Shown here piece after piece: positions 399 through 31,862 of a stretch of 31,862 nucleotides of DNA. The translations under genes were made by a program, and so were the position numbers. The notes under the pieces were generated by a model that saw only the letters and a list, made by a program, of their open reading frames with translations, ran no database searches and had not been told where the DNA came from. The first letter of the stretch is position 1. Each line of letters opens with the position of its first letter. Source of the DNA: an uncultured archaeon (GTDB taxonomy: Archaea; Thermoproteota; Nitrososphaeria; Nitrososphaerales; CALBXV01); assembly GCA_937890045.1 (NCBI GenBank), contig CALBXV010000078.1, positions 1-31,862 on the forward strand. The letters are read 5' to 3'.

Positions 399-554
399 TT
401 ATCTTCTCACTCCATAAATAGGTGTTTGAGTACCTTTTTCTTCTTGTTTAGCTAACCACTTTTTGTGCTGATTTGCCGTTCTTCCCTCAATAGACCATTT
501 TTTATTTAATGCTGCTCTTTTTTGTTTTCTACTTTTTGCTGCTCTATTCGGCAT
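399..554 (-). CDS. small very basic protein, 51 aa
   Basis: This short frame starts at ATG 554-552, overlapping by one base the stop of the thioredoxin-like gene (TAATG arrangement). It ends at TAA 401-399, one base before the next ATG. A GGAG-type ribosome-binding site lies about 10 nt upstream of the start. The product is rich in Arg, Lys and Gln (MPNRAAKSRKQKRAALNKKW at the N-terminus) and ends in TPIYGVRR. Its composition suggests nucleic-acid or ribosome binding, but no domain is recognised. Its length, the exact coupling on both sides and the good start signal support a real gene. Function unknown. Confidence 0.6.
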   Translation of the reverse strand: MPNRAAKSRKQKRAALNKKWSIEGRTANQHKKWLAKQEEKGTQTPIYGVRR

Positions 555-976
555 TAATTAGTACTCCTTCTTCTTTTCAATTTTCTTTTTTCTGGTGGTG
601 GATTATCTATCTTACTCATTATATCTGACGAAGTAACTGAATTTTTACCATCAATAGACGCTTTCCATTTTGCAATCGCTATACCATCTTTATATAAAAC
701 TACTGATGGGAATGTTCTTAGTTTATTTCTACGTGTATGATTAGGTGTATCTTTTGTATCAGCATGAAATATCTTCGTACCTTTATATCCCTCTACATCC
801 ATAAATTTATCTATACTACATACACCTGCCCAACCTGCACAAAATTCAACTACAGAATGACCTTTGGCTGTTTTTACTACAAAATCCACGTCTGTTATAG
901 GATTGTTTTCTTTCACTACATCATATTGTCCACTTAGTGAACCTATCATCAATAACATCATTAACATTTTTCTCAT
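554..976 (-). CDS. exported thioredoxin-fold protein lacking the first active-site Cys
   Basis: 140 residues. An N-terminal hydrophobic segment (MRKMLMMLLMIGSLSGQ) looks like a signal peptide, placing the protein in the periplasm or membrane. The rest fits a thioredoxin fold: strand VVEF (42-45), then W-A-G-V-C at 49-53 where thioredoxins have W-C-x-x-C, then FPSVVLYKDG at 89-98 with the expected cis-Pro at 90. The nucleophilic Cys position is Ala50; only Cys53 and a shifted Cys46 remain, so classical disulfide exchange is doubtful. The C-terminus is a basic tail (KRKLKRRRSTN). It begins three bases after the stop of the MshEN-domain gene with AGGAAATAAG upstream. It may be a structural or partner-binding thioredoxin. 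The fold call is fairly secure, the role is not. Confidence 0.68.
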   Translation of the reverse strand: MRKMLMMLLMIGSLSGQYDVVKENNPITDVDFVVKTAKGHSVVEFCAGWAGVCSIDKFMDVEGYKGTKIFHADTKDTPNHTRRNKLRTFPSVVLYKDGIAIAKWKASIDGKNSVTSSDIMSKIDNPPPEKRKLKRRRSTN

Positions 977-979
977 AAC

Positions 980-1567
980 TTATTTCCTATCTCTCTTTTT
1001 GGCCACTTCAATTTTTAATTCAACAATTTCTTCTTCAAGTCTTTCAACTTGTTCTTCCAAATCTGAAACTGCTGCTTCTAAACCACCAACTTGAGTTTTA
1101 TATTGTTCCATAGAACTGGGCCAGTTATATCCTGGATGTCTTGATGGATATTCTTCTTCATAGATATTATCTATCTTTGGAAGTTCTTTTGCTTCTTGTA
1201 TTTCAGCCATCATCATATAATAAAAACCAACAAGTGTCGCAATACCAACTGCAGCACTAATCATTGTCTGAATTGATATTGAAAATTTTGTATCTTTACT
1301 TAGTTCATTACTCATAACCTTTTCCTGTACATTACCCAGAGAAACTGTTTCCTTTTGTTCTTGGTTCTCTTCCCATCTTGTCTTAGGGCCATTATTCATC
1401 ATAACTTCAGTTAAATCGTCTATTGTTAAATATCCCAAATGAACTAAAATTTCACCTATTTTTCTATCATCACCAGTTTCTTGCATGGCAAGTGCTTCAT
1501 TTAGTTGTCTTTTAGTTAGGACATCTTCATCTAATAATATATCTCCTAACTTTTTTCCGTTAGCCAT
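980..1567 (-). CDS. MshEN (GspE N-terminal)-like domain fused to a membrane segment and coiled coil
   Basis: 195 residues. Residues 5-57 carry the doubled helix pattern of MshEN/T2SSE N-terminal domains: KLGDILLDEDVLTKRQLNEA, then KIGEILVHLGYLTIDDL. Some MshEN domains bind cyclic di-GMP in bacterial export ATPases; no ATPase follows here. A linker leads to one membrane segment at about 96-120 (FSISIQTMISAAVGIATLVG), then a long acidic coiled coil at 155-192. The likely topology is a cytoplasmic MshEN domain, an inner-membrane anchor and a periplasmic coiled coil. The membrane and coiled-coil part resembles the 130-aa protein at 5272..5664. Its start overlaps the upstream holin-like gene by 8 bp. 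The function is inferred to be sensing or scaffolding in the envelope and is unproven. Confidence 0.7.
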   Translation of the reverse strand: MANGKKLGDILLDEDVLTKRQLNEALAMQETGDDRKIGEILVHLGYLTIDDLTEVMMNNGPKTRWEENQEQKETVSLGNVQEKVMSNELSKDTKFSISIQTMISAAVGIATLVGFYYMMMAEIQEAKELPKIDNIYEEEYPSRHPGYNWPSSMEQYKTQVGGLEAAVSDLEEQVERLEEEIVELKIEVAKKRDRK

Positions 1568-1814
1568 TATCTATTTTCTCCTCACCATTACTTTTACCAC
1601 CCATAACTTTCTCTATTCCAGCTATTCCGAAACACCCTAAAGTAATGTATAAAAAACTATTATAAACAAAATCATTTATGGGTAAATCCATACCCATATA
1701 CCCTGTTACTAAATCCATAATGCTATACGTAGTCATTACAGCAAATGACATAAAACCTATTATTGTTTTTTCGTTAAATTCATTCTCATCTTTGAAAATG
1801 TCTTTAAATGCCAT
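1560..1814 (-). CDS. holin-like small membrane protein, 84 aa
   Basis: Two predicted membrane segments, about 17-39 (GFMSFAVMTTYSIMDLVTGY) and 48-67 (FVYNSFLYITLGCFGIAGIE), are flanked by a charged N-terminus (KDIFKDENEFNEK) and a charged C-terminal tail. Size and topology fit class II holins, and similar small proteins are often annotated as holins in phages of Bacteroidota. It starts one base after the TAA of the 53-aa gene and overlaps the next gene. A spanin-like gene lies about 300 bp upstream at 2090..2809, which supports a lysis role. No endolysin is adjacent. The family is not certain, so a generic phage membrane protein remains possible. Confidence 0.6.
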   Translation of the reverse strand: MAFKDIFKDENEFNEKTIIGFMSFAVMTTYSIMDLVTGYMGMDLPINDFVYNSFLYITLGCFGIAGIEKVMGGKSNGEEKIDNG

Positions 1815-1815
1815 T

Positions 1816-1977
1816 TTATTTCTCCATATTATATGGCACTACTTTGTTTAAATAATCTTTTCTAAGCTCACATCCATTACATTCTTTAATTTTACCTACT
1901 GTAACGGTTTTTATGGCTCGAAACACAGTATCTCCTAGCCCCTTATCATTTTTTATTAAATTTTTTAGTTTAATCAT
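1816..1977 (-). CDS. small phage protein with CxxC motif, 53 aa
   Basis: A short frame from ATG 1977-1975 to TAA 1818-1816, sharing an ATGA overlap with the upstream 39-aa gene and lying one base before the next ATG. It opens MIKLKNLIKNDKGLGDTV and contains KECNGCELRKDYLNK, a CxxC followed by a basic helix and LN. I recall similar GLGD...C-G-C-x-x-R-x-x-x-LN micro-proteins as frequent in phage tail and lysis regions, with no function known to me. The two Cys could bind a metal with a partner or form a disulfide. Tight coupling on both sides makes the gene call good. Confidence 0.65.
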   Translation of the reverse strand: MIKLKNLIKNDKGLGDTVFRAIKTVTVGKIKECNGCELRKDYLNKVVPYNMEK

Positions 1978-2093
1978 AATTTACTCCAGACATCCATAAA
2001 TCTTACAAAGCCAAATAAAATATACAACAGTATACTTCCAGCGACCATATGTAATAAATATTCAACGGTATTTAATATTGTTTCTATTTTCAT
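1974..2093 (-). CDS. micro membrane protein, 39 aa
   Basis: The frame runs from ATG 2093-2091, overlapping the stop of the spanin-like gene as ATGA, to TGA 1976-1974, which overlaps the next ATG in the same way. The product is a single hydrophobic segment (HMVAGSILLYILFGFVRF, about 15-32) with a short polar N-terminus and the tail MDVWSKL. Such one-span micro-proteins next to holin and spanin genes are often antiholins, pinholins or accessory lysis proteins, but nothing specific is visible here. Evidence for it being a gene is the paired ATGA couplings and the clean membrane segment. Confidence 0.6.
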   Translation of the reverse strand: MKIETILNTVEYLLHMVAGSILLYILFGFVRFMDVWSKL

Positions 2094-2809
2094 TTCCAGT
2101 CCCAAAGTTTAACCATATTATAAGTTACTCCTATTCCCCATATTGGTGATGTTAATCCTGTACTACCATCATAAGTAATACCCAATACAGGTCCTATTGA
2201 AATTTGATTTCGTGGTGGTCTTAATTTAATCACTTCACTTTGTCCACCTTTTATTCTCAAATTTAAAAATTGATTGTCAGGATAGACTGCTCTAAACTCA
2301 TATCTATCTAATTGTTCTATTTCAGGTGAGCCTAACGTTATTTCACCCTCAAAATCTGCTATGGTTTTAGCCTCAACTACTTTATTATCCCTAATTCTTA
2401 AACCAGTTCTACCGAACACTTTAATATAATTATCTTGTGTTCCAAATTCTTGTAAGAAAGGAACAGTTGTAGACTCCATTGTAGCTAAGTCTAACTTCAT
2501 AGATTCTACAGTATCTATCAAATTTTGTACTCTTTTCTCGTATTCATTACTCCAACGAACTATATCATATAAATCTGTAGATAATCTCTTTAATTGTTGG
2601 TTTTGAGTATCGTTATCTATTTGTAATCTTCTCGTAACTGTAGATAAACTATCTATAGAAGATTTATTTTTAGATATAATTTGCTCTTGTCTTTCACTAT
2701 CTAATTTTAAAAAATCATATTCTTTTTTAGCATAAAAATATCTTATTGTAAAGATAGATAAAACAAATATAACATTTAATGCAATACCTATTAAGGTATC
2801 TTTTTTCAT
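2090..2809 (-). CDS. inner-membrane coiled-coil protein with a barrel-like C-terminus; spanin candidate
   Basis: 239 residues. One N-terminal membrane anchor at about 7-26 (IGIALNVIFVLSIFTIRYFY) is followed by a long coiled coil at about 30-120, a compact middle domain, then a C-terminal stretch with alternating hydrophobic residues and glycines (ISIGPVLGITYDGSTG, then PIWGIGVTYNMVKLW). This end looks like outer-membrane beta strands. An inner-membrane anchor, a periplasm-spanning coiled coil and an outer-membrane-inserting end is the layout of a unimolecular spanin, and proteins of this shape are common in Bacteroides phages. It overlaps its upstream neighbour by ATGA and precedes small membrane proteins and a holin-like gene, so a role in outer-membrane disruption at lysis is a fair inference. 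A structural envelope tether is the alternative. Confidence 0.6.
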   Translation of the reverse strand: MKKDTLIGIALNVIFVLSIFTIRYFYAKKEYDFLKLDSERQEQIISKNKSSIDSLSTVTRRLQIDNDTQNQQLKRLSTDLYDIVRWSNEYEKRVQNLIDTVESMKLDLATMESTTVPFLQEFGTQDNYIKVFGRTGLRIRDNKVVEAKTIADFEGEITLGSPEIEQLDRYEFRAVYPDNQFLNLRIKGGQSEVIKLRPPRNQISIGPVLGITYDGSTGLTSPIWGIGVTYNMVKLWDWK

Positions 2810-3444
2810 TTTAAACTTTCTGTCGCGTCATCTATTGCTTTTCTCAAAGCACCACCCAATTCACTATTACTAAATGGAACACCATCTTCTTCAATCTGTA
2901 AACCAGTCGCAGATATCTTTGTATCAATCTCACCCATACCTCTACTTGATATTACTTTACCAGTAGCATTCTCTGTTAACAATACATTCAATCTTACTTG
3001 TGTTTTAGTTTTTCTACGATTGAATATACCAATAATACTAAATGCTTCGTTTGGTCTACCGATATAAACTATCTCTGCCGATACAGTAAAATTAGCATCA
3101 GTATCGTCAGTTAAAATATAATCTGATTCTTGGAATGATTCTTGTAATAATTGTTGTATTCCCATAGTGATTCTATCGTCTTTTATACCGACATTTTCAC
3201 TTGTTCCAACAAACTTAGATACAGTTAATGTTGGTCTAATTAAATCAGCATCTACAATTGCAGGGGTTGGTAAATTTTGAGCTTTAGCTTCTTGTCTTGC
3301 CTGCTCTCTACGTTCTTTAGCCTCGTTTCTCATTCGTTCTATTTCTACTTGGCCATTAGCAACACTACATAATGTAAATGCCAAGACTCCTAACGTGGCC
3401 AACTTAAATCCCCAATTTATTACTTTTGTTTTAATGTAATTCAT
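2806..3444 (-). CDS. exported CsgG-like protein (second copy)
   Basis: 212 residues. An N-terminal signal peptide ends near VANGQ (about residue 32), followed by a charged helix (MRNEAKERREQARQEAKAQ) and a compact alpha/beta domain: RPTLTVSKFVGTSENVG, MGIQQLLQESFQESDYIL, then VRLNVLLTENATGKVISSRG, ending in SELGGALRKAIDDATESL. The order of strand, helix, strand, 'L...TGKVI...G' and terminal helix matches the periplasmic domain of CsgG/LpoB-type proteins. CsgG forms the curli export pore in bacteria, and I recall csgG-like genes being reported in marine T4-like phages. I see no lipobox cysteine at the cleavage site, unlike the copy at 4600..5262. It is coupled to the spanin-like gene by ATGA. 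Pore formation is inference. Confidence 0.6.
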   Translation of the reverse strand: MNYIKTKVINWGFKLATLGVLAFTLCSVANGQVEIERMRNEAKERREQARQEAKAQNLPTPAIVDADLIRPTLTVSKFVGTSENVGIKDDRITMGIQQLLQESFQESDYILTDDTDANFTVSAEIVYIGRPNEAFSIIGIFNRRKTKTQVRLNVLLTENATGKVISSRGMGEIDTKISATGLQIEEDGVPFSNSELGGALRKAIDDATESLK

Positions 3445-3456
3445 ATTTGTTTTCCC

Positions 3457-3540
3457 TTAACAATTACAATTTTCACAAGTACAATTTTCACATTGACAAT
3501 TTTCACATTCACAATTTGGATTATCACATGCGTATATCAT
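3457..3540 (-). CDS. 27-aa cysteine-rich micro-protein, metallothionein-like
   Basis: A short frame from ATG 3540-3538 to TAA 3459-3457 encodes 27 residues, nine of them Cys (positions 5, 10, 12, 15, 17, 20, 22, 25, 27). From residue 10 on the spacing is strictly C-x-C-x-x, with sequence CECENCQCENCTCENCNC. CxC and CxxC pairs at this density are typical of metallothioneins and thiolate-cluster peptides. Start signals are strong: AGGAG at 3548-3552, inside the end of the upstream gene, gives translational coupling, and the frame is followed 12 nt later by the next gene. The peptide has no signal peptide, so it should sit in the cytoplasm unless co-exported. Its function could be metal buffering, metal sensing or thiol chemistry. 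Both the frame and the composition are plain in the sequence; the role is inferred. Confidence 0.7.
   Translation of the reverse strand: MIYACDNPNCECENCQCENCTCENCNC
3460..3513 (-). repeat. 15-nt tandem repeat encoding the C-x-C-x-x units
   Basis: Three full and one partial 15-nt units lie in tandem inside the cysteine-rich micro-gene. Each unit reads TGT-nnn-TGT-GAA-AAT, with only the second codon changing (GAA, CAA, ACT, AAT). The period matches the codon frame exactly, so the gene probably grew by unit duplication. It is not CRISPR: there are no long unique spacers. Confidence 0.75.
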
Positions 3541-3550
3541 TATATTTCTC

Positions 3551-4594
3551 CTAAAAATAAGTTCCAAATAAGATACTAAAAGTCTTATCTCTTTCCCCAT
3601 AATCATTAACTACGGTGTTATATCCCATTGAAACACCTAAGTTAAATGAGAAAGCCGTACCTAATTTCCAATCCATTGAAATGGTTGGCATAAAAATAAT
3701 CGGACTTCTCAATAATAAATATCTGTCATCCTTATTATTACCCTCATAATACCTCATAAGTGTATAAGCAATATAATTAGAAAAACTAACTTTAACTTGA
3801 CCTAAATCAAATGGAAATCTTTGCCCATACACCATTGTTAAATTTCCAAAATCATTACCACTAACATTTCCATATGAACCAGTAAGAACAAATGCTTCAG
3901 AATTCTTTTTCATTAATGATTTTGCAAAAGAAGTTGATACTAACCAATCCCAACCCTCAAATGTTCTATATGTTAAAGCACTTCCATTTATTACTACATT
4001 TTGTTTTTTTGCTTTAAACTTAAATCCTTGTCCATATGTAAGAGAGCCTTTTCTAAAATCATTTGTAAAATTAAAATTGCCATCGTGTCGTTTACTACCA
4101 TCAAAACTTGTAGCCGTATAAACACTATTAAATGAAGTTATCCATCTTTCTGGACCTGGAGAAGAACGAACTGCATAATTGACCTGTTGTGGAGTAGATG
4201 AAATATCTTCTCCACCACCCTCATCTGATTTACTAAATTGTTCACTAACATTTTCTGCAATTACTGAAGATAATATCTCTTCAGCTACTTTTACTGCACA
4301 AGGAAATAAATCTTCAAAATCGTCATAAACGGATTGTGTCCAATCTTCTATAGCATATACTGGTATTTTATTTCCAAATGAATCAGTTTCATACCGTACT
4401 ATTGTTAACGCCTCTTCTAATGTAAAAAACTTAGTACGATTGTAATAAGTTACAGTAAAACCTTCTTGATTTGATGAAATCTTATAATTACTACTAACTA
4501 TAGTTTGTTCACACGGGTCTACATAAGAATAATGGAACGATTGGGCAGAGATACTACTCCCTAATAATAAAAAAAGTAAAAGTTTCTGCCACAT
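3551..4594 (-). CDS. exported protein with a predicted outer-membrane barrel, 347 aa
   Basis: A signal peptide (MWQKLLLFLLLGSSISAQ) precedes an N-terminal domain with two Cys (DPCEQTI, LFPCAVK) and a helical EEILSSVIAENVSEQF stretch. A short linker (KSDEGGGEDISSTPQQ) leads to about 210 residues of alternating beta strands ending in FSILFGTYF. The terminal aromatic residue and the glycine/aromatic strand pattern are typical of an outer-membrane beta-barrel. No family is recognised. It sits between two CsgG-like genes, which suggests an outer-membrane partner, but it does not look like CsgF. It starts a few bases after the stop of the lipoprotein gene, and its end contains the ribosome-binding site of the cysteine-rich gene. 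Confidence 0.6.
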   Translation of the reverse strand: MWQKLLLFLLLGSSISAQSFHYSYVDPCEQTIVSSNYKISSNQEGFTVTYYNRTKFFTLEEALTIVRYETDSFGNKIPVYAIEDWTQSVYDDFEDLFPCAVKVAEEILSSVIAENVSEQFSKSDEGGGEDISSTPQQVNYAVRSSPGPERWITSFNSVYTATSFDGSKRHDGNFNFTNDFRKGSLTYGQGFKFKAKKQNVVINGSALTYRTFEGWDWLVSTSFAKSLMKKNSEAFVLTGSYGNVSGNDFGNLTMVYGQRFPFDLGQVKVSFSNYIAYTLMRYYEGNNKDDRYLLLRSPIIFMPTISMDWKLGTAFSFNLGVSMGYNTVVNDYGERDKTFSILFGTYF

Positions 4595-4599
4595 TCATT

Positions 4600-5262
4600 C
4601 TACCAACCTCGTCTGTCAATTGCTTTTATAACATTGACTACAGCGGTCTCCATAGCTTTATTTGATGCGGAACTCAAAGAAGATTGATTCCAAGCCATAT
4701 TAGGATTCATTAAAAATCCTTTACCTACGGTTGAAGCTCTTCCTTGTCCACTACCAACAACATATTGTGTATTCTCGTTATTAATTAACTTAACTTGAAT
4801 ACCAACGATTGTTTCATTGATAGTCTCCACCTTACCTGCCTTTATTTCTTCTTTTAGATTTACTGCGAAATCATAAATACTAACACTTGCGGAATATTTA
4901 GCTTTTGTAATCTTAGCATCGTTGGCTCTCAAATCATTCATAATCAAAAGTTGCATATCTCTTTCAGCTTCCACTAAATTAAATCTACCAACATAAGAGA
5001 TTACATTCTGAAGTTCTTGAACAAGACCCATAGAAACTCTTTTATCTGCTAATTCAGGGTATCGTTCTTCTAACTCTTTGTTAAACTTTAAATCATAAAG
5101 TTTTAATCCATCAACTTTTGTTATTACAATTTCATCTAAAGATTTTTCTTTTTCATACTCACCAACGTATTGTTCTGTTTGAACGGAAGCGGCACATCCT
5201 ATTATATTGGATACAACCAAACCGAAAACAAAAAACAATACAAAACGATAATTGTTTTTCAT
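4600..5262 (-). CDS. CsgG-like outer-membrane lipoprotein
   Basis: 220 residues. A signal peptide with lipobox SNIIGC puts the lipidated Cys at 23, so the mature protein should be an outer-membrane lipoprotein. The body has the CsgG/LpoB-like order: VDGLKLYDLKFNKELEE, then MGLVQELQNVISYVGRFNLV, a domain with SVSIYDFAVNL, IVGIQVKLINNENTQYVVGS and SGQGRAST, and a terminal helix (NKAMETAVVNVIKAIDRRG). CsgG lipoproteins assemble an outer-membrane secretion channel. This resemblance is by pattern and memory, not alignment. The gene is followed by a barrel-like exported protein and, two genes later, by a second CsgG-like protein, suggesting a hetero-oligomeric complex. Peptidoglycan-synthase activators of the LpoB type are the alternative. 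Confidence 0.62.
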   Translation of the reverse strand: MKNNYRFVLFFVFGLVVSNIIGCAASVQTEQYVGEYEKEKSLDEIVITKVDGLKLYDLKFNKELEERYPELADKRVSMGLVQELQNVISYVGRFNLVEAERDMQLLIMNDLRANDAKITKAKYSASVSIYDFAVNLKEEIKAGKVETINETIVGIQVKLINNENTQYVVGSGQGRASTVGKGFLMNPNMAWNQSSLSSASNKAMETAVVNVIKAIDRRGW

Positions 5263-5271
5263 TGTTATCTC

Positions 5272-5664
5272 CTATTTAAAATCTGCTAATGGATCTTTAA
5301 GTAATTTTTCAAGTCTGCCTATTTCACCTTTTAACTTATTAATCTCACCCTGAAGTTTCACAATATCCCCATCATAAGATTTCATTTTGGGTGTTTTTAA
5401 GTTATCAAGTTTATCACGTAGATACTTTATATCTTCATCATATGAAGTAAGTTTTTGTGTTACCAACTCAATATCACTTGCATCTGCAAATCCTGTAACT
5501 ATTTCTTCTAATCCATCAATACGACCAGTAAATGAATACCAACCTGCTATTCCTGTTGATAATACTGTTACAAGTGCTATGATATTCTGAATTGATAATC
5601 CAAACTTTTTATTTTTCATATCCTCAATTGCGGATTCTGCATCCACTACTTTTTTCTTTGCCAT
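5272..5664 (-). CDS. inner-membrane coiled-coil protein, 130 aa
   Basis: A short basic and charged N-terminus (MAKKKVVDAESAIEDMKNKK) leads into one membrane segment at about 24-46 (FGLSIQNIIALVTVLSTGIA) and then a periplasmic region dominated by coiled coil (KLQGEINKLKGEIGRLEKLL near the end). The residues around the membrane entry, KFGLSIQ, match KFSISIQ in the protein at 980..1567, so the two look paralogous in their membrane/coiled-coil halves. The gene is tightly spaced: it begins one base after the stop of the PorV-like gene. A tether or spanin-like stalk between membranes is possible. No enzyme domain is visible. Confidence 0.6.
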   Translation of the reverse strand: MAKKKVVDAESAIEDMKNKKFGLSIQNIIALVTVLSTGIAGWYSFTGRIDGLEEIVTGFADASDIELVTQKLTSYDEDIKYLRDKLDNLKTPKMKSYDGDIVKLQGEINKLKGEIGRLEKLLKDPLADFK

Positions 5665-5665
5665 T

Positions 5666-6502
5666 TTACAACTCCAAGTTTATTGTTAATCTAATTGTGT
5701 TACCTAATGGTAACGTCTTGTCTCCATAAATATAACTCATACCAATAATATATTTATCATATTTAAAATCTAATCCAAATGTAGGATAAGTTAATTCATG
5801 TGTATCATCCATATAATATCCAACTTTACCCCATAACATATTTTTATAATTATAACTTGTTCCCATACCAAATGTTTGATGTTTTGTCATTTTATTAAAT
5901 TGTCCATAAAACATAAAATCTTTATATGGATATGTTCCAGCTATATTTAGACTTGTAGGTAATTCTGATTTATAACTACCAAACTTTGGTGCAAATCCAA
6001 AATTACGAACCATAACATCTACATCTAAATCTTTATACACTTTAGGAAAATATCCACCAACACCAAAAAGAAATCCAGTTGCTTTCTGTGTATGTAAGTC
6101 GTGTGTTATTACTTTTGCATTTAATCCTAAATTATATTTACCAACTTTACGTGCATAATCTACACTATATACTGCACTTAATGGGGTAAATGTTCCATCT
6201 ATAATTCCATCTATGTCAGTTGCCTTTTGTTCTCCATAATTAAAAAACATAACACTAACACCAAATGGCCCTCTATCCATATTTATAAAATTATAATTCA
6301 TATCATCTACAATATTTGGCATCCAATTAACTCTACTGAAACTAAACATATCTTTATTATAAAGATTACGTGCTGGATTCATCATTGGTAACATCACATT
6401 ACCAATTGAACTCGTTTGAGCAGTAGGTGCTATGGTTAATATTCTATTGGCTTGGCCAAACAACGAACTTATTAATAATAAACTTAATAATATTTTTTTC
6501 AT
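5666..6502 (-). CDS. PorV/PorQ-like outer-membrane barrel protein
   Basis: 278 residues with a signal peptide (MKKILLSLLLISSLFGQ). The mature part follows the PorV/PorQ (UPF0164) layout: an early SSIGNVMLPMMNPARNLYN with the N-P-A of the 'NPAG' motif (42-44), MFSFSRVNWMPNIVDDMNYN (52-71), PFGVSVMFFNYGEQKATDID (79-98), YSVDYARKVGKYNLGLNAKV, VMVRNFGFAPKFG, and terminal strand IRLTINLEL. PorV is the outer-membrane shuttle that takes cargo from the type IX translocon to the attachment complex; PorQ is a relative. A type IX cargo gene lies immediately upstream (6606..9371), separated only by a 35-aa gene coupled on both sides. The family call is from pattern recognition. A generic barrel or superinfection-exclusion factor is the alternative. 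Confidence 0.65.
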   Translation of the reverse strand: MKKILLSLLLISSLFGQANRILTIAPTAQTSSIGNVMLPMMNPARNLYNKDMFSFSRVNWMPNIVDDMNYNFINMDRGPFGVSVMFFNYGEQKATDIDGIIDGTFTPLSAVYSVDYARKVGKYNLGLNAKVITHDLHTQKATGFLFGVGGYFPKVYKDLDVDVMVRNFGFAPKFGSYKSELPTSLNIAGTYPYKDFMFYGQFNKMTKHQTFGMGTSYNYKNMLWGKVGYYMDDTHELTYPTFGLDFKYDKYIIGMSYIYGDKTLPLGNTIRLTINLEL

Positions 6503-6606
6503 TTTTTACTCTCTATTTTTTCTGCTATCCAAACAACAAATTTCATTGTGAAATATAACGCTGGAAGCATAGCAGCTAATGTGAAGAAAAATTGTAATTC
6601 ACTCAT
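6499..6606 (-). CDS. micro membrane protein, 35 aa
   Basis: ATG 6606-6604 overlaps the stop of the 921-aa gene by one base (TAATG), and TGA 6501-6499 overlaps the ATG of the PorV-like gene as ATGA. The product is one hydrophobic segment (FFFTLAAMLPALYFTMKFVV, about 6-25) with a charged tail (AEKIESKK). The perfect coupling on both sides is the main evidence. No family is recognised. It could be a small accessory subunit, or a translational coupler that keeps the PorV-like gene in step with the cargo gene. Confidence 0.6.
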   Translation of the reverse strand: MSELQFFFTLAAMLPALYFTMKFVVWIAEKIESKK

Positions 6607-9371
6607 TATTTCACCACCGTAAATTTATTAGCTTTAATTTTGTTATCTGTCTGTAATACAAATATATAAACTCCAGGTTCTAACTTCTGATGGTTTTCAT
6701 AAACACTAACCTCTGGTAACCAAACTGTAGGTTCATTTGTAAAATCAAAAGTATGCAATCCAGGTAACACGTGTTCATTTAAAAGTGTTCCAACCTTTTG
6801 TCCTATTGAGTTTAAAATATACAATTTAACATCTTTCGGTTCTTCTAAATAAAACTGAAACTTTGTATTTTCTGTAAATGGATTTGGGTAGTTATAAGTA
6901 AGAGCATCATTGTCTGGTTTTCCACCACCGAATGCCCAATATTTATTCCACACCAATACCATACCATCATCTCTACTCATACTTAAATCTCTACCAGCTG
7001 GACTACCTGCTGCATGTTTACCAACAAATCTAATTGGTGCTTCAGTCCATTCTGTATCAGGAAAGTTAGCTTGAAATATTAGTTTCAATCCTGCCATTTC
7101 TTTATCAATCCAATATCTTTCTGGTGCGTTGCTTGGTGAATAATCAACTGCACCGAAAGCAACTCTTTGCCAATTATTAACAGGCTCATCAACATTTACA
7201 TAAGTCAACCATGGCCCTGGTAAGACATCAGTTTTCATATCAACAAATTCTAATATAGTTGTATCAAACTCAACCTCAAATTCAAAACCAGATATTAGAA
7301 TTCCCTCATTTGGTGTAATAGTTAATGGAACTTCTATCTGATTACCTGACTGAACCCTTACAGTTGAGTCTGCAGGTAATGAAAGATATACATCAACATC
7401 ATTCATAGTTCTATTTAATGCTCGTGAACTTAAACCTGTTCCTGGATTAACTTTTGCTGACCACTCACTTGGTGCATTACTTCCCCAACGATAATATGTC
7501 GTAGTGTTAGTTTGTGTTTGATAAGCATCACTACCAACTTTTGTACCAGTAGTATTTACATCACCTGTAAAGAAATATGCTAAACTATCAATAGTATAAT
7601 CTGGATTTACTTCGCTCATCCAAGCAGATGTACCATTACCAACATTATAATGTATTGTATCTAATCCAGTTATAATATCATCCATCAATGGATTAATAGT
7701 TTCTATAGGCCCATATGTTAAAGCTTGAGCTTGATTAAAATCACCATCTTCAAATACTGTAAACTCATATTTTTGTGGTCTTGATTGTCCGTTTAGAGTT
7801 TGATAATATCCTCGTGCTGTAGGTGTTCCCGCAACATAAAATGTATCTATCGTAGACCAATCTTCATATGAGTTTCCATTATGGTGTGTATAATTACTCA
7901 TAATACCTGATACATAACTCCATAAAATATAAGTGTCATTCAAATGAAACAAATCATCACCATCTACATCACCAATAAAATATTCTATAGCATTTAATGT
8001 ATCTATTCTTCCACCACCACTATTATAATTGTGATGTTTACCAGATTGGAAATTAAATGACATTATAGCATCGGTTACATTTGTAATTTGTTCCCTATCT
8101 AATTCAAGTTGTGAATGATTCTCTATATTATCACTTGAGTCAGGTGGCCAAAATGACATTCGGTATCCATTATTTCTTGGTAATTGAATATTATAATATC
8201 CATTAGAATCTGTATAGGTTGAATCATAATAACTTATACCAAGAAATCCCTCTGCTGGAACTACTTGGTCTGCTCTTGTTGATTTTTTATCATAAAAATA
8301 TCCAGGAGCTCCTGGTTGAAAATTACCAATTACATCATCAGTAGTATTATTCTCTGTTGTTAATCCAGCATCTGAAATTGATTCTATGTTATACCAATTA
8401 GAATAAGAATGTGGATTACTTTGGTCTAATTCAAATTTTATTTTCCAATATGGATACGTGTTATCTGTTGCTGTAGTAAATGCAGCTCCAACTGCTCTAT
8501 TTTTACCTTGAACATATCTAAAGTAACCCTCAACATCTACAAGTTTTGGATGTAATGTAATATCACCACGAGCACCACCTATACCAACTCCATCTTGTCC
8601 CGTATTACCATCTATATAAACTTGATAAGTTGTTAAATAATTTCCATTTGTTACATAAGTATAATATCCTGTTCCAGATAAATACTTCGTTGCTACTCTA
8701 AATGATTTGGCGGAAAAATTATCCGCCACATCATCTATTTTAAAATGTAATTTTAATAATTCTGTTTGTACAGAATCGCCAGCACCAAATGTTTTAACAT
8801 TACCATTATGTGATACCATTGTGATTCTTAACCAATCATAATCATTAGATGTAATAGATTTTGAAGTATCTTGTGTTCCACCAGCTGCTAAAGAATCTGT
8901 ATATCCCACATTAGCATAACGAACTACTTCATATGAATAATGTGCACCAGCTGAACTATCTCCCTCAGTCCAACCATTGATGTATGCACCTTTCTCCACG
9001 CGTGTTGAATCATGAGTCCAATCTATTAAATCATTATCAAATACTAAATCCAATCTAAAAGCCGTTACAGATGCATCGTTGTCATCAAGTGTAACAGCGA
9101 TAGTCATTACAGAATCTCTCCAGGCATCAAAGTTATTATTCTTATAAGCTACACCTCTTGTTTTACTCTTATAACTACCATTGGTCGGATTAGCCAATCC
9201 AGTAGTGTCATCGGCCAAGTATCCTCTCAACTTAAAATTTTCTTGAGCTCTCCACCAAAATTTAGGTGTATTGTATTCTCTTGATTGTATAAGTCTAATA
9301 ATTGGTGTTTGAGCTTCTGCGAAACTCAGCATCATTATTAACCCCATTAAAAATTTAGCAATGTAATTCAA
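6606..9371 (-). CDS. secreted multidomain protein with type IX secretion sorting tail, 921 aa
   Basis: Starts at TTG 9371-9369, with GGAG seven bases upstream; no ATG fits better. A signal peptide (1-20, ending FAEAQ) is followed by a cohesin-like beta domain at about 80-230, a carboxypeptidase-regulatory-like/X-module-like region at about 275-440, a dockerin-like calcium loop GDVDGDDLFHLND (467-479), a degenerate second loop GDVNTTGTKVGSD (603-615), a second cohesin-like domain at about 660-800, and a type A C-terminal sorting domain at 827-921 (YNYPNPFTENTKFQFYL, LNSIGQKVGTL, EPGVYIFVLQ, KFTVVK). In Bacteroidota and relatives this tail sends proteins through the type IX system to the cell surface. 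The host cell, rather than the virion, is the expected site. The gene follows the tail genes and precedes a PorV-like gene. Confidence 0.82.
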   Translation of the reverse strand: MNYIAKFLMGLIMMLSFAEAQTPIIRLIQSREYNTPKFWWRAQENFKLRGYLADDTTGLANPTNGSYKSKTRGVAYKNNNFDAWRDSVMTIAVTLDDNDASVTAFRLDLVFDNDLIDWTHDSTRVEKGAYINGWTEGDSSAGAHYSYEVVRYANVGYTDSLAAGGTQDTSKSITSNDYDWLRITMVSHNGNVKTFGAGDSVQTELLKLHFKIDDVADNFSAKSFRVATKYLSGTGYYTYVTNGNYLTTYQVYIDGNTGQDGVGIGGARGDITLHPKLVDVEGYFRYVQGKNRAVGAAFTTATDNTYPYWKIKFELDQSNPHSYSNWYNIESISDAGLTTENNTTDDVIGNFQPGAPGYFYDKKSTRADQVVPAEGFLGISYYDSTYTDSNGYYNIQLPRNNGYRMSFWPPDSSDNIENHSQLELDREQITNVTDAIMSFNFQSGKHHNYNSGGGRIDTLNAIEYFIGDVDGDDLFHLNDTYILWSYVSGIMSNYTHHNGNSYEDWSTIDTFYVAGTPTARGYYQTLNGQSRPQKYEFTVFEDGDFNQAQALTYGPIETINPLMDDIITGLDTIHYNVGNGTSAWMSEVNPDYTIDSLAYFFTGDVNTTGTKVGSDAYQTQTNTTTYYRWGSNAPSEWSAKVNPGTGLSSRALNRTMNDVDVYLSLPADSTVRVQSGNQIEVPLTITPNEGILISGFEFEVEFDTTILEFVDMKTDVLPGPWLTYVNVDEPVNNWQRVAFGAVDYSPSNAPERYWIDKEMAGLKLIFQANFPDTEWTEAPIRFVGKHAAGSPAGRDLSMSRDDGMVLVWNKYWAFGGGKPDNDALTYNYPNPFTENTKFQFYLEEPKDVKLYILNSIGQKVGTLLNEHVLPGLHTFDFTNEPTVWLPEVSVYENHQKLEPGVYIFVLQTDNKIKANKFTVVK

Positions 9372-9378
9372 GGCAAAT

Positions 9379-9382
9379 CTCC
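9379..9382 (-). promoter_or_regulatory. ribosome-binding site that fixes a TTG start
   Basis: GGAG, seven bases before the TTG at 9371, is the only good Shine-Dalgarno sequence near the start of the 921-aa gene. It sets the signal peptide as the true N-terminus. Confidence 0.6.
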
Positions 9383-9412
9383 AATTCGTTATAAGTATAT
9401 GTTTGTTTTATG

Positions 9413-9432
9413 ACCTTTTAGATTAAAAAGGT
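9413..9432. other. small hairpin between tail genes and the envelope operon
   Basis: ACCTTTT and AAAAGGT form a 7-bp stem with a 6-base loop, midway in the 102-bp gap between the 366-aa tail gene and the 921-aa gene. There is no clear U-run after it on the minus strand, so it is a weak terminator at best; a processing or pausing site is as likely. The rest of this gap is very AT-rich (ATATTTATT near 9450 resembles the element noted at 13541). Confidence 0.35.
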
Positions 9433-9473
9433 ATAGACTTTATTAGATAATAAATATAATATATATTAGTATT

Positions 9474-10574
9474 TTAATTGTCAAATCTAATAGTAAATGA
9501 TATATCGTATTCTTTTGGTTTTTTGATTGGTCTTGCGAGTTTAGCGACTGCTAAGAGTTCTTTGTTATCATTATATAACCCAATACTTGTTATATATGGA
9601 TTAAAAGCTGAATGTGTTACAAAATTTGAATATACTCCAGATGGTCTATATACTGAGCTCGTATCATATTCTTCTTGAGTTCCAATTTCATTATAAACTG
9701 ATCCTGTTACAGTATTATGAATTCCTTCCATAAAATATCCAGTTAAATCGCTTCCAAGTAATTGTGAGCCACTTCTACCTGGAGTTGCACTTATATTATC
9801 GGTCCCATTATATTCATGTTCTTGTATATTACATAAAAATTCATATTCTCTGATTGTTTTAGTTCCCTGTAATTTTAATTCAAAACCATCTGTACCTTCC
9901 AATTTTGCCACATTACCATATTTTGACCCCGTATCAGTAATTACAAGTAGACCTTGATCATAAAATATATTTCCTATCGCATCACCTACCACTACATTAG
10001 ATCCCGATAATGATGAAGACCTTCTTGCAAAACTAGATGAATAAACAGTATCATATAAATGTCCTCTTTCATCATCTACTAAAGTAAGAGTTTCATCTGT
10101 CAAAGAATTATCAATTAGTCGTACAGACCCAGGTTTTATTTCTTCTCCGAAAAATTTTCGGGGAATGTTAATAACTCTTAAACTATTATGTATTTTATTT
10201 AAAAATGACCCAGATGAATCTCTAGGCCAAGGATCTTGATTAAAACTAAATTGTGGTTGTGGAGCAATTCCCCTAGGGTTGTTTTGTTGTTCAAATTTAT
10301 AATATAAATGATTAATTGAATTATAAACAGGAAGGTTATAATAAGTACCTACACTATACCAAGTATCTTTATCTTTTCCAAGAGATTTTGATAATTCATT
10401 TAAAGTACCAATAGATTTTGACTGTGCAGACGCAGTACTATAATTAAAATAACTTCCGCTAGTGCCTTCAAGAACAAAAACTCCACTTCCACTATCCGCG
10501 TCAGTGAATTCGTATTGTTTAAAAACTTTAAACGGGGTGATTGTCGCGTTGCCTTCTCCAATCGGCTTAAACAT
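9474..10574 (-). CDS. tail-associated structural protein, 366 aa (paralogue of the next gene upstream)
   Basis: A Ser/Gly/Tyr-rich, beta-dominated protein typical of phage tail fibres or adaptors, with no signal peptide. Its C-terminus (YITSIGLYNDNKELLAVAKL, then ARPIKK and FTIRFDN) matches that of the 355-aa protein at 10588..11655 (YITTVGLYNANSELLAVAKL, KVRLDF). Both also share PIGE near the N-terminus, so they are paralogues. This C-terminal motif recurs, in my memory, in tail proteins of phages of Bacteroidota. A good ribosome-binding site (GAGGTGAG) precedes ATG 10574. It is last in the tail block; host recognition or fibre attachment is inferred from position. Confidence 0.65.
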   Translation of the reverse strand: MFKPIGEGNATITPFKVFKQYEFTDADSGSGVFVLEGTSGSYFNYSTASAQSKSIGTLNELSKSLGKDKDTWYSVGTYYNLPVYNSINHLYYKFEQQNNPRGIAPQPQFSFNQDPWPRDSSGSFLNKIHNSLRVINIPRKFFGEEIKPGSVRLIDNSLTDETLTLVDDERGHLYDTVYSSSFARRSSSLSGSNVVVGDAIGNIFYDQGLLVITDTGSKYGNVAKLEGTDGFELKLQGTKTIREYEFLCNIQEHEYNGTDNISATPGRSGSQLLGSDLTGYFMEGIHNTVTGSVYNEIGTQEEYDTSSVYRPSGVYSNFVTHSAFNPYITSIGLYNDNKELLAVAKLARPIKKPKEYDISFTIRFDN

Positions 10575-10587
10575 AGGCTCACCTCAC

Positions 10588-11655
10588 TTAAAAATCAAGT
10601 CTTACTTTTATTACTGCTTCTCTTGCCGGAGTTTTTAAGAACGGTTTACTAAGTTTAGCTACAGCTAACAATTCACTATTAGCATTATACAATCCTACCG
10701 TAGTAATATATGTACGAGGATCTGTTACATAAGTTGGATTTGTTAACTCTCCACTTCCAGTATAATATGTTGGGTTTTGACTAAAATTATATCGTCTATT
10801 ATTTACTCTACAAAAATAATGAGTTGATTTAATATCTTCTTCACGTCTTGCTTGAAAATATCCACCTGAACTATTAAATACATCAAACAATTTGCTAGAA
10901 TTATTATCATCCGCATTAGTACTTAATCCAGTAGAAAGTGAAATTCCATCTTGAGTTCCCGCTTGATTTTTATCTAATTCACCTGAGTCAAGCATGAAAG
11001 CACCTAAAAATGGATAGAATCTACCATAATACATTTTAGTTGTTCCAGATGAATATTTATATGATGCTGTTCCACCACTAATACTTCCAGAAACTATATT
11101 AAAATATGTAGTTCCTTTAGATACACTTGAATCTGTAGTAGCATCACTATCATCAATAAGACGCAATGTTCTTCCTGTTCCGGCTAATCGAATTTCCCAA
11201 TTACCTGGATCAATTTTTTCTCGCATTCTGGCTCTTGATACAGTAATGAAATAAGATGAAGATGATTCTAGTTCAGCTCCACTTGCCCCATACTTAAAAT
11301 ATGTTTGAGTTGGAGATACTATGAGATTTTTAAATTGTGAATATATAGCCTGAGAGGCGTTTGTACCGTCCGTAGCATTTTTTGATCCACTCCCAGCGTA
11401 ATGTCCGTAAGCCACACTAAACTGCACTTCAGTTGTAGATGAAGATGTTGCTTCTTGATGTACATCTACGTAATAATCACCACTAGATGCACTTTGCGCT
11501 GACGATGAAAAGAATCCTGCAGTTGTAGATCCTTGAGTTAATGTAGTTCCTCCGCTCGACCATATACCACTTGAAACTGTAGTAACTCTGTTCGCCACTA
11601 TATCTTCGGCTGTATCAAAGAGTTGAAATACTCCTGATGCTTCTCCTATTGGCAT
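10588..11655 (-). CDS. tail-associated structural protein, 355 aa
   Basis: Beta-rich and Ser/Thr/Gly-rich throughout (for example SSAQSASSGDYYVDVH), as in phage fibres and receptor-binding adaptors. It contains YFITVSRARMREKIDPGNWE and ends with the GLYNANSELLAVAKLSKP motif shared with the gene downstream. The start ATG 11655 has AGGAG eight bases upstream. A TATAAATA lies directly against that ribosome-binding site (11668-11675), too close to make a normal leader. No enzymatic domain is visible. Function inferred from position among tail genes and composition. Confidence 0.65.
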   Translation of the reverse strand: MPIGEASGVFQLFDTAEDIVANRVTTVSSGIWSSGGTTLTQGSTTAGFFSSSAQSASSGDYYVDVHQEATSSSTTEVQFSVAYGHYAGSGSKNATDGTNASQAIYSQFKNLIVSPTQTYFKYGASGAELESSSSYFITVSRARMREKIDPGNWEIRLAGTGRTLRLIDDSDATTDSSVSKGTTYFNIVSGSISGGTASYKYSSGTTKMYYGRFYPFLGAFMLDSGELDKNQAGTQDGISLSTGLSTNADDNNSSKLFDVFNSSGGYFQARREEDIKSTHYFCRVNNRRYNFSQNPTYYTGSGELTNPTYVTDPRTYITTVGLYNANSELLAVAKLSKPFLKTPAREAVIKVRLDF

Positions 11656-19158: not shown

Positions 19159-19776
19159 CTATGTAATTGTAACTTGATTACTATATTGTGATCCACCAGA
19201 ACCTCCAGAACCTCCGCCACTAGAGGAATTACTACTGGTGGAACCAGTATCTCCGCTTGTTGTATCTGATGTGGTATCAGCAATACTTGTATATTCACTA
19301 GTACCTGATGTTAAATAATCTACCTCTTTAAATCTATTATCTATAACTTTTACCGCAGAGTGAGGAACAAATCTGTCTCTCCCCTGACTGATAGTTTCAA
19401 CAAAATTAACTGTAAGTTCTACATCATATCCTGTAGCCATAGTACTGCCTGGATAAGCTACTTGTCGGCTAATAAAATTTATACTTTGTTGAAGATTTCC
19501 ACTTTGAATGTCCTGATATAAATTATATACCAGTCTTCCATTTACGTCTGTCCTAGGTGCCATATTTAAAGCTTGTCCTGGTGTGATTTTTCCAAGTTCC
19601 TTTTCCCATCCATAGGTCACTCGGCCATATCTGTCTGCCTTGCCCCCCCTAGATGCGGGGTTTTTTACCCATTCAGTTAAATATACATCTCTATCCGCAA
19701 GATATTGAACTGCATTTTTTTCTCTTAACCTTCTAACAAATGCTAAATGCTTTATTTCTTCCTTACTATAAGGCAT
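19159..19776 (-). CDS. baseplate-region protein with Ser/Gly-rich tail, 205 aa
   Basis: The N-terminal 155 residues form a compact domain (MPYSKEEIKHLAFVRRLREK, DRYGRVTYGWEKELGKI, MATGYDVELTVNFVETISQG). The last 50 residues are low complexity, largely Ser, Thr and Gly with a GGGSGGSGGSQYSNQ stretch, like a flexible linker or disordered tail. It shares one base with the stop of the upstream DNRLRE-like gene and lies 10 bases before the giant gene. It occupies a place where a small wedge protein such as gp53 could lie, but the sequence does not look like gp53. Function unknown; virion protein by context. Confidence 0.6.
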   Translation of the reverse strand: MPYSKEEIKHLAFVRRLREKNAVQYLADRDVYLTEWVKNPASRGGKADRYGRVTYGWEKELGKITPGQALNMAPRTDVNGRLVYNLYQDIQSGNLQQSINFISRQVAYPGSTMATGYDVELTVNFVETISQGRDRFVPHSAVKVIDNRFKEVDYLTSGTSEYTSIADTTSDTTSGDTGSTSSNSSSGGGSGGSGGSQYSNQVTIT

Positions 19777-30830: not shown

Positions 30831-31040
30831 CTAGTCCGTTGCTGTAACGTTTTTTGCTACTGGACCTTGCCTACCTTCACCAATTTCAAACGATACTTTT
30901 TGACCTTCTTCTAAAGTCTTAAAGCCTTCTGTTTGAATATCGGAAAAATGTACAAAGTAATCTTTGCCTTCTGATACTGAATCTGCTACGAAACCGTAAC
31001 CTTTTTTAGTATCAAACCATTTTACTGTGCCTGTATTCAT
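30831..31040 (-). CDS. csp: cold-shock domain protein
   Basis: 69 residues, the normal size. It has both RNA-binding motifs: KGYGFVAD (RNP1) and YFVHFSDI (RNP2), with the opening [15 protein letters not shown] and a GPVAKNV end. These proteins bind single-stranded RNA and DNA and melt mRNA structure. Phages carry them occasionally, presumably to keep transcripts open. The start has AAGGAAA upstream. The tmRNA follows 81 bases later on the same strand, so the two may share a transcript. Confidence 0.92.
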
Positions 31041-31269: not shown

Positions 31270-31862
31270 TTAACTATTAAGTAAATGAGGTTTTCCCTCA
31301 ATATTACCTGCCCCTGTAACTTGTATCAATTCTACCTTAGAATGAAACTCAGAAATATCGTTAGCGCCAACATAACTGAAAGCACTACGAATTCCCTCTT
31401 GTATATCTTTAAGAATTCTTTTGACCTTACCCTTATAGGGTATAACTTTGTGATTACCTTCAACATTTTTATCATCACCTCTATCGTGTTTTGAATCTAA
31501 AGATGCAGACCCTCTATATTTTTTATATAACATTTCATTAGGCCACTCGCCTATTTTTTCAATCGTTCCTGGAGTTTCTTTTGTACCAGATAAAAGGGAA
31601 CCCAACATAATCGTGTCAGCCCCACAAGCAAGTCCTTTACACACATCACCAATAGTGCGAACACCACCATCAGCAATAATGGGAGTATCAAAAGTATCAG
31701 CAACGGCAACACAATCAATGAGAGCAGACACCTGAGGGATTCCCACGCCCGTTCTGATTCTCGTTTCACATAACGATCCATTTCCAATTCCGACTCTAAT
31801 CGCGTCTGCTCCTTTTTCACATAAGTATTCACACGCTTCTCCTGTCGCAACTGATCCCGCAA
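31270..31862 (-). CDS. IMP dehydrogenase/GMP reductase family enzyme (5' part outside the window)
   Basis: The frame is open to the window edge; about 197 residues are visible. Diagnostic sequence includes [39 protein letters not shown] with the catalytic loop Cys, [20 protein letters not shown], then [19 protein letters not shown] and [14 protein letters not shown]. This is the second half of the TIM barrel of IMPDH/GMPR enzymes, which bind the purine nucleotide through the Cys. The end (EGKPHLL) resembles IMPDH, but the usual Arg-Tyr flap is not clear (HDRGDDKN), so IMPDH and GMP reductase cannot be separated. It would adjust the host guanine nucleotide pool during infection. A GTG at 31746 lies inside the domain and is not the start. 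Confidence 0.85.

Follow-up and report, generated by a model that had tools for sequence, protein, structure and literature searches.

A phage cargo with a type IX sorting domain and its PorV-family neighbour, a candidate pair for surface display

When a phage protein carries the address label of its host's secretion system, does the phage also bring part of the machinery that delivers it? The question is raised by contig CALBXV010000078.1 (assembly GCA_937890045.1), whose 31,862 nucleotides (nt) were analysed as a whole and are here called the window. On its reverse strand the window encodes a 921-residue protein with a type A C-terminal sorting domain (CTD) of the type IX secretion system (T9SS), here called the cargo (6606..9371), followed by an outer-membrane beta-barrel of the PorV/PorQ family, a putative T9SS shuttle (5666..6502). 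From this gene pair it seems that part of the surface-display machinery is the phage's own. A first-pass annotation, made from the letters alone, had described the cargo as a myophage protein exported to the cell surface. The baseplate genes support a myophage, and the predicted export, which the sorting domain favors, is strengthened by the adjoining barrel gene that this annotation had not noticed.

The cargo and its PorV-family neighbour

The cargo comprises a signal peptide, a cohesin-like domain, a dockerin-like repeat, a cohesin domain and the sorting domain. The sorting domain (residues 828-919) matches TIGR04183 with 26.0 bits against a cut-off of 23, and this is the sole NCBIfam match at E<=1; TIGR04131, the type B CTD, gave no match in the cargo. 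A YPNP-type motif is a hallmark of type A sorting domains, and YPNPF together with a lysine near the C-terminus is present in all 52 cargo genes with a complete 3' end. Such a lysine is near-invariant in type A CTDs (PMC10994853). TIGR04183 is above its cut-off in 52 of 62 phage records, the others being truncated or a remnant. A Sec signal-peptide-like start was detected in 58 of 59 cargo loci and in almost none of the tail genes, as called by a crude hydropathy rule rather than a dedicated predictor. Both ends of the protein are thus as first annotated.

The middle of the cargo is less clear. The dockerin-like repeat was recognized by eye at about residues 467-488; Pfam reports no Dockerin in the window's protein, and Dockerin_1 is below its cut-off in two relatives (18.1 and 19.3 of 22.9 bits). 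The predicted model is poor overall (predicted local distance difference test, pLDDT, 54), leaving residues from about 275 to 655 without a fold assignment. Type A CTDs have a seven-stranded immunoglobulin-like fold; for the last domain of the cargo, PorU and GbpA are tied as fold matches. Neither the cargo nor its neighbour has a match in PHROGs at E<=0.01. Of four cargo regions, the sorting domain shows the lowest ratio of nonsynonymous to synonymous substitutions (dN/dS) in each of eight comparisons with the window (0.048-0.140, approximate because synonymous distances are 0.92-1.50, versus 0.151-0.320 for the remaining cargo).

The cargo was found again in 60 viral contigs, giving 61 loci with the window, 52 of them with a complete 3' end and 50 of these extending at least 300 nt beyond it. 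In all 50 a PorV-family gene is next, on the same strand, with a gap of -4 to 243 nt (in one of them the contig ends within the PorV gene). NF033709 detects 46 of these genes at E<=0.01, and phmmer started from the window's protein detects the other four. Many contigs nearly duplicate one another: the 52 cargo genes reduce to 43 different sequences, and the complete PorV sequences to 36. The nearest virus record (G001) has all sampled words in common with the window. At the limits used, a search of 50,697 phage records found no relative of the cargo, the PorV-family protein or the protein of gene 3551-4594. GTDB genomes searched with the cargo yielded one locus, on a 9.2-kb contig in a Flavobacteriales metagenome-assembled genome (MAG). 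The placement of this contig may be a binning accident. Besides a PorV of its own, the same MAG contains 44 matches to the sorting domain at E<=0.01, including that of the phage contig. One further contig (L009, 3782-4196) holds a cargo-end remnant and a PorV start at its end, with the remaining genes running the opposite way; it is probably a misjoin, or else a moved unit.

The window's PorV-family protein scores 103.7 bits against NF033709 (cut-off 90), and 47 of the 62 phage records match this family at E<=0.01. PorV is the sole PDB match of the phage PorV profile, and the phage protein has the PorV-type beta-barrel fold. In one Flavobacterium johnsoniae structure, the CTD lysine is bonded to the backbone of PorV N87 and F115 (PMC10994853). 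These residues align by eye with D66 and Y89 of the phage protein, within the conserved motifs NIVDDM and YGEQ; Y89 and D67, which adjoins D66, are invariant among 25 sequences. The loops aligned with the CTD-facing loops carry conserved motifs, and binding of the CTD inside the SprA translocon is putative. The phage gene has a dN/dS of 0.169-0.279 in five comparisons, two of them between near copies.

A quick tree was built from 25 phage and 24 cellular members; the program warns of long branches, and the cellular sample comes from a single bacterial phylum. In this tree the phage PorVs form one clade (Shimodaira-Hasegawa-like approximate likelihood-ratio test, SH-aLRT, 99). This clade joins six cellular sequences (SH-aLRT 96), four of them typed as PorV, and the other 18, one typed as PorQ, lie apart. 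Of 296 genomes from that sampled phylum, 225 have a relative detected by the phage profile at E<=1e-6. At one cellular locus (L097), a sorting-domain gene (37.7 bits) is immediately upstream of a PorV, so such cargo-PorV pairs can exist in cells. A Tara source is recorded for only one of the listed PorV clusters (P0012).

An exchangeable region behind the tail genes

The pair lies in a region (1568..9458) bounded by a tail-fibre-type gene (9474-10574) and gene 980-1567. Scanning with the tail gene gave 509 viral stretches. Among the best 80 of these, 23 extend at least 5 kb behind the tail open reading frame (ORF), counting one (L135) with a split ORF, for which the actual distance is 4.6 kb. 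The cargo is present in 15 of the 23, with a PorV gene next in all ten that run past the cargo end. Seven of the eight stretches without cargo have a signal-peptide-bearing protein at the same place, and one has neither. The alternative proteins form one family of 426-438 residues (one is cut by the contig end), are 36-78% identical, and show no similarity to the cargo, the PorV or the outer-membrane-protein-like protein of the cassette. This other cassette is found at the cargo locus of L107 (11487-12773), L149, L151, L162, L177 and L184, with no family match above cut-off. In the whole records of L107, L149 and L184 we found no sorting domain above cut-off and no PorV match.

Over 11,477 aligned columns (blastn), L107 shares 94.6% identity with the window, until about 90 nt before the cargo. 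Beyond that point it is dissimilar, apart from a similar patch of some 97 nt at 3457-3553, behind gene 3551-4594. Given that L107 loses similarity before the cargo and carries another outer-membrane cassette, the region has been swapped; its left edge is sharp in L107 and its right edge is less sure because of the patch. Genes 2806-3444, 2090-2809 and 1560-1814 are found in none of the eight cargo-less stretches, and genes 980-1567 and 554-976 in five of them, placing the swapped region from the cargo to about position 1568. Synonymous distances agree with a separate history: compared with L018, two tail genes give 0.05-0.15 and the cargo 0.73, and compared with L031 the values are 1.07-1.69 and 0.62. 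The swapped region has its own history, apart from that of the tail. A trade of alternative outer-membrane modules would fit an arms race over the cell surface.

The swapped region holds further genes, all on the reverse strand. A 35-residue ORF with one hydrophobic stretch (6499..6606) overlaps the cargo stop and the PorV start codon and fills the gap between the two genes in the window; similar ORFs of 35-36 residues occur in 14 of 49 other loci. Behind the PorV gene are a 130-residue protein with one hydrophobic stretch (5272..5664), whose order is kept in relatives, and a 220-residue putative lipoprotein (4600..5262). The latter is possibly CsgG-like; its profile matched no PDB sequence at E<=1. 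The next gene (3551..4594) encodes a 347-residue protein with a signal peptide and, by eye, a C-terminus like that of outer-membrane proteins. A signal-peptide-like start is present in 36 of 36 loci, and the family-library searches gave no family above cut-off.

Outside the region, the product of gene 980-1567 (reverse strand) has an MshE-type cyclic di-GMP-binding domain (NF053729, 47.1 bits, cut-off 38) and, by eye, a hydrophobic stretch and a coiled coil; it occurs in phages with either cassette. Gene 554-976 (reverse strand) is thioredoxin-like (E 9.3e-5, 22.8 of 23.5 bits), with a signal-peptide-like start by eye and a position kept in several relatives. Beside the alternative cassette, L149 encodes a haem-NO-binding protein (HNOB, H-NOX; 19186-19734, PF07700, 154 bits, cut-off 25.5), which L107 14750-15187 resembles by eye. 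Elsewhere on the reverse strand of the window are a cold-shock-type protein gene (30831-31040) and a truncated IMP dehydrogenase/GMP reductase-like gene (31270-31860, TIGR01302, E 9e-48), the latter possibly an auxiliary metabolic gene.

Relatives in phages and in cells

The cultured Flavobacterium phage vB_FspM_immuto (MW353176) is the only phage record with cassette genes. Its 243-residue protein QQO91933 (12691-13422), annotated only as a cohesin-domain protein, has a cohesin domain (36.6 bits) and the sorting domain PF18962 (36.7 bits, cut-off 27), and aligns with cargo residues 671-916 (profile E 2.7e-9). As in the window, a small protein follows and then a homologue of gene 4600-5262 (29.6% identity, E 3e-24). 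The immuto cassette differs in that the cohesin-CTD part is a separate gene, the PorV profile finds no match, and the genome position is another one. A separate 363-residue immuto gene considered as the counterpart of the cargo's N-terminal part gave no profile match (E 0.044) and was rejected.

A scan for the immuto-like cohesin-CTD gene found it in 27 viral contigs, including immuto's record. In three of them (L207, L210 and L212) the cohesin-CTD part lies inside an open frame of 634-658 residues, and in the first two the cohesin and sorting domains are above cut-off and Dockerin_1 is below. Two genes upstream of the cohesin-CTD gene, L080 (4528-5526; immuto 10527-11525) encodes a C-type lectin protein (58 bits) with, by eye, a signal peptide and a dockerin-like terminal repeat, a possible cohesin partner.

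In the Bacteroidota T9SS, type A cargo likewise has a signal peptide and a TIGR04183 domain, with a barrel of the PorV family as partner. All type A CTDs in F. johnsoniae are recognized by one PorV (PMC12618676), whereas the phage gene pair gives one cargo a PorV-family protein of its own. The order of a cargo gene followed by a cognate shuttle gene recalls type B cargo in F. johnsoniae, for which the PorP/SprF shuttle gene is often directly downstream (PMC12618676), but type B cargo has a TIGR04131 CTD, uses another shuttle family and is cellular rather than viral. The phage pair joins a tail of type A to a gene order of type B.

The first-pass annotation knew of no described phage cargo for this system, which is contradicted by the immuto gene and by two published reports. 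Cryophage has three genes for T9SS type A cargo (Bellas 2020, PMC7468147); these encode endoglucanase, GH39 and PA14 proteins that vary among phage variants, and the parts of the report consulted show no shuttle gene. ORFs of crAss-like cluster 2 contigs also have T9SS sorting domains (de Jonge 2019, PMC6949934), in a BACON-domain context and likewise with no shuttle in the parts consulted. We found no phage-encoded PorV and no phage cargo-shuttle pair in the parts consulted of the open-licence literature of PubMed Central. Phage T9SS cargo is already in print, and the part that may be new is a putative phage T9SS shuttle beside its own cargo.

Surface display and competing explanations

We consider it fairly probable that the phage displays the cargo on infected cells through the host T9SS, using its own putative shuttle. 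This explanation is favored by the sorting domain with its motifs, the adjoining PorV-family gene and their strict pairing; by the low dN/dS of the sorting domain and the lysine-contact residues in conserved motifs; and by the grouping of phage PorVs with PorV-typed cellular sequences, the growth of immuto on Flavobacterium and the contig in the Flavobacteriales MAG. The cargo would pass through Sec, its type A CTD would enter the host SprA translocon, and the phage barrel would bind the CTD and take the cargo out sideways. The barrel may remain with the cargo as an anchor, like PorP/SprF with type B cargo. Homology, gene pairing and conserved loops suggest these binding, transport and anchoring roles. 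The infected cell would then show cohesin-like modules on its surface, probably late in infection because the region lies between tail-fibre-type and lysis-type genes. As to their function, our first guess is that they make it harder for further virions to adsorb to the infected cell or its debris, a role that is possible but doubtful; help with lysis ranks second. The host itself is suggested by the sorting domain, the relation to immuto and the single MAG contig. The style of the tail also raised Marinimicrobia as a possible host.

Several observations weigh against display by a phage shuttle. The protein misses the cut-off of the PorV equivalog NF033710 (50.5 of 250 bits) and is thus filed as a family relative rather than as PorV itself; NF033709 is above cut-off in only 22 of the 62 phage records, and the four PorV genes found by phmmer were detected solely through the window's protein. 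The phage protein is short (278 versus 402 residues), with only about 21 counterparts to PorV residues 234 to 323, so the loops that enter SprA may be missing. Lysine contacts vary from substrate to substrate (PMC10994853). In the 27 immuto-like loci, which include many fragments, the PorV profile finds nothing at E<=10. For the baseplate protein, the best match is Mel-JY01 (42.3%, versus 35.8% for immuto), a phage recorded on the cyanobacterium Microcystis, in which neither the sorting-domain nor the PorV family was found. Finally, the host's PorV should already serve type A cargo.

This last point leads to the strongest competitor, in which the cargo leaves by the host T9SS and host PorV and the phage barrel has another task: it might form a channel, mask a receptor or compete with host export and so block it. 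We regard this as unlikely, given the pairing with the cargo in all 50 loci, the restriction of PDB matches to PorV and the conservation of the loops aligned with the CTD-facing loops. Somewhat less likely still, the region could be part of lysis, its late envelope proteins weakening or opening the outer membrane together with adjoining spanin- and holin-like genes. The Rz-like match of gene 2090-2809 is weak (26.9 of 92.75 bits), gene 1560-1814 is short and hydrophobic by eye, and the absence of both, and of gene 2806-3444, from contigs with the other cassette indicates that the three travel with the cargo-PorV pair. However, none of these genes matches a lysis family at cut-off, and a sorting domain with a shuttle serves surface export rather than rupture.

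The cargo's position directly behind tail-fibre-type genes, and the tie of PorU with GbpA, would also suit a virion part, a tail-fibre-like adhesin whose last immunoglobulin-like domain merely resembles a sorting domain; the signal-peptide-like starts, nearly confined to the cargo in this comparison with tail genes, the TIGR04183 matches above cut-off and the adjoining PorV make this very improbable. A host-phage chimera, to which the bacterial families of both proteins and the junction in L009 might point and which would have undone the first-pass annotation, is contradicted by the gene order shared among viral contigs of many samples and by the 94.6% identity over 11.5 kb to a contig with another cassette at the same place, and we give it almost no weight.

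Beyond display by a phage shuttle, we tentatively put forward a broader proposal that falls a little short of probable: a T9SS shuttle may have evolved in the viruses of T9SS bacteria themselves. This phage PorV, which has a single cargo as its partner, would commandeer host translocons late in infection, cover the cell with a viral surface protein and anchor it there, as a self-contained display unit traded against other outer-membrane cassettes. As immuto is in culture, the cargo half is open to test now. The pair is a recurrent and concrete candidate for phage remodelling of the infected-cell surface. If the proposal is true, the phage would supply a part of the T9SS, going beyond borrowing the host system, and nature would offer in the pair an example of type A cargo served by a private shuttle, relevant to how shuttles determine what becomes of cargo once it has been exported.
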